This document shows, in pieces, positions 55,882 to 59,509 of a stretch of DNA of 64,000 nucleotides. The stretch's first letter is position 1. The number at the start of each line of letters is the position of its first letter. The notes under the pieces were generated by a model that saw nothing but the letters and a program-made list of their open reading frames with translations, was not told where the DNA came from and made no database searches. This DNA comes from a virus, in the IMG/VR virus record IMGVR_UViG_3300012988_000016, positions 244,896-308,895 of that record; one strand, 5' to 3'. Made by a program: the position numbers and the translations under genes.

Positions 55882-55909
55882 TAGAACGGATGGGGGAGCG
55901 AGAAGTTAA
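55882..55909 (-). promoter_or_regulatory. Class B promoter element (consensus)
   Basis: TTAACTTC (55909-55902), 12 nt, CCGTTCTA (55889-55882). No ATG at 5-6 nt; a structured leader follows. Confidence 0.78.
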
Positions 55910-56054
55910 CCCTCTTGATACACCCCTATGTTGGGTTAACGATGGCCCTTGTTACTCAATCGGATAAGTAAACTGCGAGCAAAAATGACCGAAAACGCCT
56001 ATTCTAGGACACAGTTTCGATGTATGTAGAATCTACTTGTAAGGCGAGCCATGT
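55910..56054. other. 145-nt gap before the integrase-like/GIY-YIG gene
   Basis: AT-rich, without class A or B boxes. TTGTTACTC...TAAGTAAAC (55949-55972) could be a host-type promoter. No repeat that would mark an attachment or homing site was seen by eye. Confidence 0.4.
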
Positions 56055-57059
56055 ATGCATCACGAGAAATTGCTCGAAGCGTGGTTGGCTGGATACGGGG
56101 GAGCCACCCTCATAGCGTACAGACCGGTCGCCCAATCGTTCCTAACTCAGGTCCCTCTTGAGATGCCGGCCATCCAGGCATGGGCCGAATCGCTCACAGG
56201 AAGTCCCTCAACAAGAGCGAGGAAGGTCTCGACCATTGTCAGCCTATTGACCTTCGCCCACAAGCACAGATACGTTGAAGAGAACTTGGGACTGTCTTTG
56301 AACCGTCCCAAGCAGACACCCAAGAAAGTCGTCCCTGTCGACACAAGCCTGATCCAGGATCTGGTTGGCGCTGCCAACGGGGAGCGGGACCGCCTCTTGA
56401 TTCGAGTGCTCTATGAGACCGGCAAATCCCCAGAGGCCGTCACCAAGCTTCGGTTCAAGGACTTGGATCAGGTCTCTGACGGATTGAAAGCTAGCCTGCT
56501 TGAGTTCCAAAAGGACGCCAGCCCTGAGCGGCTTGTGTTCCTATCATTTCGAAACCAAAAGCTTTCTGCCAGAGATGCCAGACGTATGGTACAGCGTGCT
56601 GCAACGGAAGCCGGCTTGGATGAGTTGGGGACGGCCTGGCTTCGCAAGGCCCATCACTGGAAAGACCCGAAACCAGTCCGAGCTTGGAATATTCGACAGG
56701 CTGCCTCGGGGCCGTTCGGAATCATCTACGGTCTGAGGGACCCAAGAACCAACGATCTCTGCTACGTCGGTATGACCCGTCTAAAGCTCCAAGAGCGGCT
56801 GAGGTGTCATCTGTCGAAGGCCAACCTAAAGACCCGTAATCGGGCTTCTGGATGGCTTCGGGGCCTCCTTGCAGACGGGGTTCGCCCTGTGGCTGAAGTG
56901 TTGGCAGTCGCCAAGGATCGGGACGAGCTGCTCTACCTGGAACGCTATCACATCAGCCAAGCCCGCTCGGAGGGACATCCGCTGGTCAACAGTACGCACG
57001 TCTGGAGCCTGAGGAAGATTCAAAAGAGGCTCAGAGGCGACATGAGTCGCTGGGCTTGA
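56055..57059 (+). CDS. Integrase-fold protein fused to a GIY-YIG nuclease (334 aa)
   Basis: Residues about 1-90 look like the SAM-like N-terminal domain of tyrosine recombinases; GERDRLLIRVLYETGKSPEA, then VTKLRFKDLD, matches the start of the catalytic core, but the usual Arg (T-G-x-R) is replaced and there is no R-H-x-x-H/Y end. From about 217 a GIY-YIG domain follows: GIIYGLRD, then LCYVGMTRLKLQERLRCHL; the Glu lies in LLYLERYHI. So a recombinase-fold DNA binder, probably dead as a recombinase, carries a nuclease. It resembles a homing-endonuclease design (inference). It lacks both phage promoter boxes. Confidence 0.75.
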   Translation: MHHEKLLEAWLAGYGGATLIAYRPVAQSFLTQVPLEMPAIQAWAESLTGSPSTRARKVSTIVSLLTFAHKHRYVEENLGLSLNRPKQTPKKVVPVDTSLIQDLVGAANGERDRLLIRVLYETGKSPEAVTKLRFKDLDQVSDGLKASLLEFQKDASPERLVFLSFRNQKLSARDARRMVQRAATEAGLDELGTAWLRKAHHWKDPKPVRAWNIRQAASGPFGIIYGLRDPRTNDLCYVGMTRLKLQERLRCHLSKANLKTRNRASGWLRGLLADGVRPVAEVLAVAKDRDELLYLERYHISQARSEGHPLVNSTHVWSLRKIQKRLRGDMSRWA

Positions 57060-58465: not shown

Positions 58466-58538
58466 TTGCGGCTAGTTCAACAGGAAGAGCGACCCTTGTT
58501 AAAAGGGAGAGAAGTGGGTTCGAGGCCCACGCCGTGAG
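58466..58538 (+). tRNA. tRNA-Asn-like (GTT), 5-nt anticodon loop
   Basis: Acceptor TTGCGGC (58466-58472) pairs with GCCGTGA (58531-58537). D-stem GTTC/GAGC; T-arm GTGGG TTCGAGG CCCAC. Anticodon stem CCCTT/AAGGG closes on a 5-nt loop GTTAA, which equals the normal CTGTTAA loop without positions 32 and 33. No CCA end is encoded. Confidence 0.7.
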
Positions 58539-58541
58539 CAA

Positions 58542-59437: not shown

Positions 59438-59509
59438 GATACTTTGGTGTACTGGTGCACACACCCGATAAGGGTGGAGAGTTGGGTTCGAATCCCAGCA
59501 AGTATCCCA
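59438..59509 (+). tRNA. tRNA-Ile-like (GAT), 5-nt anticodon loop
   Basis: Acceptor GATACTT (59438-59444) pairs perfectly with AAGTATC (59500-59506). D-arm GTGT/GCAC; T-arm TTGGG TTCGAAT CCCAG. Anticodon stem CACCC/GGGTG closes on GATAA, the loop of E. coli tRNA-Ile (CTGATAA) without positions 32 and 33. A CCA follows (59507-59509 is CCA if one base is read as discriminator). Confidence 0.72.

Follow-up and report, generated by a model that had tools for sequence, protein, structure and literature searches.

A phage protein joining a catalytically dead tyrosine recombinase to a complete GIY-YIG nuclease domain, a candidate targeted endonuclease

A single phage gene encodes, in one open frame, a tyrosine recombinase fold stripped of all but one of its catalytic residues followed by a GIY-YIG nuclease domain with a complete active site. 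As a whole, this is probably best explained by a targeted DNA endonuclease, built from a duplicate of the phage's own recombinase and a GIY-YIG cutter, that would bind a target and cleave it. An earlier note on this DNA had proposed an integrase scaffold used for site choice; with DNA binding presumed, that is still the best mechanistic reading of a protein in which a catalytically dead recombinase fold precedes a complete GIY-YIG domain. Unless stated otherwise, positions are those of the window, i.e. the whole stretch of 64,000 nucleotides that was analysed. The gene and its parts are as follows.

56055..57059, plus strand: recombinase/GIY-YIG fusion gene (334 aa), a single open frame in which both domains are detected
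56055..56318, plus strand: core-binding (SAM-like) DNA-binding domain, residues 1-88 (50% identity to the intact recombinase; model)
56319..56657, plus strand: degenerate catalytic domain, residues 89-201 (alignments; 36% identity to the intact recombinase)
56658..56705, plus strand: junction or linker, residues 202-217 (alignment; low model confidence)
56706..56999, plus strand: GIY-YIG nuclease domain, residues 218-315 (Pfam, alignments with phage GIY-YIG proteins, model, fold search)
57000..57056, plus strand: short basic C-terminal helix or tail, residues 316-334 (sequence; helix predicted at low confidence)

The open reading frame starts with ATG and runs for 334 codons without an internal stop. 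It occupies 300950-301954 of a linear 308,895-base IMG/VR virus record; the fusion is known from this one sequence, and the 308.9-kb contig is possibly incomplete. The record has the look of a tailed phage, with a major head protein (phrog_2522, 3.9e-51), a weaker match to a tail protein and replicative helicases. An artefact of misassembly or frameshift, or a chance juxtaposition, is judged unlikely because the recombinase half copies none of the recombinases found (only 38% identity to the nearest, the phage's own) and because codon usage is uniform across the junction. Codon usage also fits the true frame of the gene better than the other two frames.

The recombinase half is recognised by the NCBIfam XerA model (1e-9), a PHROG integrase profile (3.7e-7) and Pfam Phage_integrase (1.7e-5; 25.1 bits, just under the Pfam cutoff of 27.1). 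It begins at residue 4, without an extra N-terminal domain. When AlphaFold2 is run on residues 1-200 with an alignment of recombinases, pLDDT lies mostly between 83 and 97 (about 90), and the helical model of residues 1-88 reaches 90-97 over most of its length. In the PDB, this model is closest in fold to lambda integrase bound to DNA and to Xer recombinases; there is also a weak match to 8a0a (MrpR). Residues 1-200 are thereby predicted to contain the core-binding and catalytic domains of a tyrosine recombinase, the C-terminal end of the catalytic domain being missing.

Little is left of the catalytic set R-K-H-R-(H/W)-Y, as judged in an alignment to nine intact recombinases. The first catalytic arginine (Arg I) is replaced by Ser125, the beta-hairpin carrying the catalytic lysine is deleted and His II has become Ala194. 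Arg II, retained as Arg197, is the sole survivor. The third His/Trp and the nucleophilic tyrosine are gone, the nuclease occupying the C-terminal end of the recombinase from the junction (residues 202-217) onwards. This alignment confirms that the catalytic set is destroyed and that the protein does not qualify as an active tyrosine recombinase of the integrase/Xer kind. Sequence profiles, model and residue-by-residue comparison all agree with the earlier description of the N-terminal two thirds as resembling a tyrosine recombinase that has lost catalytic residues.

The GIY-YIG half presents the opposite picture. A contig-wide Pfam search overlooked this domain; searched against the protein itself, the same model matches residues 222-305 (6.4e-6; 26.8 bits, above the cutoff of 22.6). 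All the active-site residues are kept, namely Y225, Y237, G239, R248, H252, E296 and N312. The C-terminal half was poorly modelled in a first AlphaFold2 run because the recombinase alignment held too few relatives of it. With an alignment of phage GIY-YIG genes, the nuclease part reaches a pLDDT of about 95 over its core; in all, structure prediction gives a recombinase fold in residues 1-200 and a GIY-YIG fold in the C-terminal part. The top fold matches of the nuclease model are the GIY-YIG enzyme PD-T4-3 and the GIY-YIG domain of UvrC, with probabilities of 0.98-1.00 but E-values of only about 0.02-0.1. The motifs, the active-site Arg, Glu and Asn and the predicted fold place the domain in the GIY-YIG superfamily; the full signature that had been claimed for the C-terminal third is borne out by Pfam, alignments, residues and fold search alike. 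Its relatives are free-standing phage genes of the homing-endonuclease type, one of which sits between ribonucleotide reductase genes. In those retrieved, the nuclease lies near the N-terminus and is followed by other sequence, with no recombinase. As in homing endonuclease genes, the DNA-binding and nuclease domains of the fusion are predicted to be separate and at opposite ends of the protein. Because the losses of active-site residues are asymmetric, the intact nuclease site next to a dead recombinase site suggests that cutting, and not recombining, has been kept.

An intact tyrosine recombinase of 279 amino acids is encoded on the same contig (243464-244303, minus strand, contig coordinates), about 0.6 kb before the start of the window and 57 kb from the fusion gene. 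BLASTP aligns the two proteins over residues 4-188 of the fusion with 38% identity (E = 8e-37). A pattern scan found an ortholog of the intact recombinase in a 452-kb phage, IMGVR_UViG_3300037484_000445, which is a true sister of the 309-kb phage: 149 of 330 ORFs are matched, the core is collinear and the head proteins are 94% identical. A more distant relative occurs in a third phage, of 408 kb. Phylogenetic trees put the fusion together with the recombinases of the 309-kb and 452-kb phages (support 97/96 in one sampling, 90/82 in a second that includes the 408-kb phage); when the fusion is omitted from the tree, the recombinases of all three phages form a single clade (98/97). The branch of the fusion is long, so that its placement calls for caution, and duplication may have preceded or followed the split of the sister phages. 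Since the fusion groups with the intact recombinase of its lineage and the sister ortholog, its recombinase half most likely descends from the lineage's own recombinase. Between the fusion and its intact paralog, identity is 50% in the DNA-binding half and 36% in the catalytic half, compared with 60% and 52% for the intact pair of orthologs (309-kb versus 452-kb). By these figures, conservation of the fusion leans to the DNA-binding half more than it does in the intact pair.

The earlier note had also suspected a recently acquired gene. Recent foreign acquisition is unsupported because the whole gene matches the phage in codon usage (z = -0.07) and both halves are alike in this respect; kinship to the lineage's own recombinase and the long branch also speak against it.

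The fusion appears unusual in the collections covered. Tblastn in phage and plasmid collections returned no record matching both halves, and the IMG/VR and GTDB loci that were retrieved with related recombinases all lack an in-frame GIY-YIG domain. Pattern scans of viral and genome collections revealed no second fusion, although they need short near-exact stretches and may miss distant ones. Among 691 sampled bacterial genomes of two phyla there was no fusion, the matches being to the recombinase half or, once, to the nuclease half. Both the 452-kb sister and the 408-kb phage have the recombinase and lack the fusion. The open-licence papers found describe no such protein; polinton-like viruses and Tsy do have both a GIY-YIG nuclease and a tyrosine recombinase, but encoded by separate genes (PMC10293859 for Tsy). 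The architecture search yielded no second protein with recombinase and GIY-YIG domains in the collections covered, in line with the earlier note, which knew of no standard family with this domain order. The gene lies in a variable arm of the genome, where the 452-kb sister is almost without synteny. No empty allele was found, the sister not being syntenic at the locus, nor any cleavage or target site of the fusion. A comparison of shared non-coding 15-mers and an inverted-repeat scan near both genes detected no recombination site common to the sister phages.

Sequences upstream of the gene bear on its expression. A motif, CTTAACTTC-N11-TCCGTTCTA, recurs contig-wide 3-6 bases before many ATG starts, a placement that would have transcription begin at the initiation codon or close to it and yield almost leaderless transcripts.

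4095, 8068, 45254, 46632, 48691, 53461, 62329 and 63844: examples of copies of CTTAACTTC-N11-TCCGTTCTA in the window
55882..55910, minus strand: phage promoter-like motif GTTAACTTC-N11-TCCGTTCTA, the copy nearest to the fusion and oriented away from it
55905..55940, no strand: perfect 8-bp inverted repeat GTTAACCC-N20-GGGTTAAC, lying between the fusion and its divergent upstream neighbour in the intergenic region

Because this nearest copy faces the opposite way, the fusion gene seems to use some other promoter. The gene had been said to lack both phage promoter motifs; this holds for one of them, CTTAACTTC-N11-TCCGTTCTA, which is absent in the right orientation, while a second motif was not identified. 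The inverted repeat is the sole copy in the window (0 expected), and may be an operator. A role as a recombination site is not supported: its arms are 20 bp apart, the contig holds no further exact copy and it overlaps the promoter motif.

Other features of the contig may be recorded here. A tRNA-Leu(taa) with Rfam support lies at window positions 58466-58539, 1.4 kb past the fusion, and a tRNA-Tyr(ata) call without Rfam support at 59439-59509, 2.4 kb past it; contig bases 1-240000 yielded no tRNA. Outside the window, the phage encodes a Cas9 of 1020 amino acids (contig 205573-208635, plus strand; PADLOC 4.9e-101; Pfam HNH_4, RuvC_III), followed by a CRISPR array (contig 208741-209287) of eight 36-nt repeats with 35-37-nt spacers. 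A search with these spacers gave no informative match.

How might such a protein work? A duplicate of the lineage's tyrosine recombinase would have lost its strand-exchange chemistry and retained its DNA-binding clamp, and its C-terminal end would have given way to a GIY-YIG cutter like those of phage homing endonucleases. Cleavage by the tethered GIY-YIG domain would then take place close to a recombinase-type half-site to which the N-terminal part binds. The most likely use would be against related or co-infecting phage DNA bearing such a site. Free-standing nucleases of large phages also serve in competition among co-infecting phages. A targeted endonuclease is favoured by the one-frame fusion, the complete nuclease site, the dead recombinase site and the two predicted folds. 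The better-kept DNA-binding half, the relationship with the recombinase of the phage itself and the homing-type GIY-YIG relatives lend further support, and Odn (PMC8263062) and TnsF (PMC10293859) would be precedents by analogy. Against it, the site of the phage's own intact recombinase might also be open to cutting, and the long branch could reflect decay. The simplest guess is that diverged specificity is how the phage spares its own sites. It is a rather speculative extension, and on balance an unlikely one, that the phage has turned the duplicate into a self-built weapon that cuts the equivalent recombination sites of competing huge phages or satellites.

Homing and interference would be two uses of the same cut, indistinguishable here, and the confidences given to them overlap because they share one proposed mechanism. 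As a selfish free-standing homing endonuclease, the protein would cut a site in related phages without the gene, and repair would copy the gene in. GIY-YIG is the usual nuclease of phage homing endonucleases, the nearest GIY-YIG relatives are of that type and the fusion is missing from two phages that have the recombinase. However, there is no intron, no empty allele was found, the surroundings of the gene are not syntenic in the sister phage, the domain order is reversed relative to the GIY-YIG relatives and a DNA-binding domain from the phage's own recombinase would be unusual, all of which makes this a tentative possibility. A domesticated, Odn-like interference nuclease would benefit the phage by cleaving the site that satellites or rival phages with a related recombinase use for recombination or attachment. 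The logic is that of Odn, in which the DNA-binding domain imitates the one of the targeted element (PMC8263062). Recombinases related to that of the fusion are widespread in phages and plasmids, and this phage, with its Cas9 and CRISPR array, is armed against other DNA. Yet the closest recombinases belong to the phage itself and its sister, not to a satellite, and no target was found; we consider this use somewhat doubtful.

Two further explanations were weighed. The protein might be a DNA-binding repressor, in which the dead recombinase part matters, or a decaying relic, in which nothing does. The tyrosine-recombinase fold of MrpR has turned repressor (PMC10516654) and matches the model weakly (8a0a), and the long branch would suit a relic, but the complete GIY-YIG active site, the open frame and the phage-typical codon usage of both halves render this distinctly unlikely. 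It is more improbable still that the fusion is a recombination accessory working with the intact recombinase, e.g. by nicking or resolving DNA at its site. The paralog is indeed present in the same genome, and in Tsy recombinases work alongside a GIY-YIG nuclease that is helpful but non-essential for transposition (PMC10293859); nevertheless, 57 kb separate the two genes, and in the sister phage the recombinase occurs with no fusion.

The preferred reading, a targeted endonuclease, points to a way in which a new site-specific nuclease might arise in nature: a recombinase is duplicated, its chemistry dies and a cutter is attached. The intact paralog resides in the same genome, so that mapping its recognition site could serve to predict the target of the fusion.

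The closest known systems can be compared with the fusion. Residues 1-200 resemble the intact recombinases of huge phages (the 309-kb phage and IMGVR_UViG_3300037484_000445) in fold and sequence, but these retain the catalytic residues and the C-terminal end. Free-standing phage GIY-YIG homing endonucleases of the I-TevI/Seg type share with the fusion all the GIY-YIG active-site residues, yet in the relatives retrieved the nuclease comes first and another DNA-binding region second. MrpR, a repressor of SPbeta, likewise has a tyrosine-recombinase fold that has lost recombination; it binds DNA (PMC10516654), as the fusion presumably does, but has no nuclease domain. TnsF employs an inactivated recombinase as a site selector (PMC10293859). 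Dead recombinases can serve merely for DNA binding, since TnsF (PMC10293859) and MrpR (PMC10516654) do so. The presumed likeness to TnsF and Tsy lies in a dead tyrosine recombinase choosing DNA sites and in recombinases and a GIY-YIG nuclease within one system (PMC10293859). In contrast to the fusion, TnsF bears zinc fingers and guides a Tn7-type transposase, and the GIY-YIG nuclease of Tsy is a separate gene. The fusion has no N-terminal zinc fingers of the TnsF layout, and a non-exhaustive look at its neighbours recognised no transposition genes.

Odn of phage ICP1, in which a captured DNA-binding domain is joined to an HEG-type nuclease (PMC8263062), would by analogy be the closest functioning example of a phage chimera with such logic. 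Odn and the RepA_N-T5orf172 phage nucleases (PMC8263062, PMC10448857) resemble the fusion in combining a DNA-binding domain from another kind of protein with a homing-derived nuclease of the GIY-YIG superfamily in a lytic-type phage. The RepA_N and T5orf172 domains are absent from the fusion, for which Pfam gives PF01541 and PF00589 only. Moreover, the DNA-binding part of Odn is a RepA_N replication-initiator domain copied from a satellite, whereas in the fusion this part is an inactivated tyrosine recombinase closest to that of the phage itself. The fusion brings together in a single protein two themes so far known separately, namely site selection by dead recombinases and the use of GIY-YIG chimeras in phage conflict.
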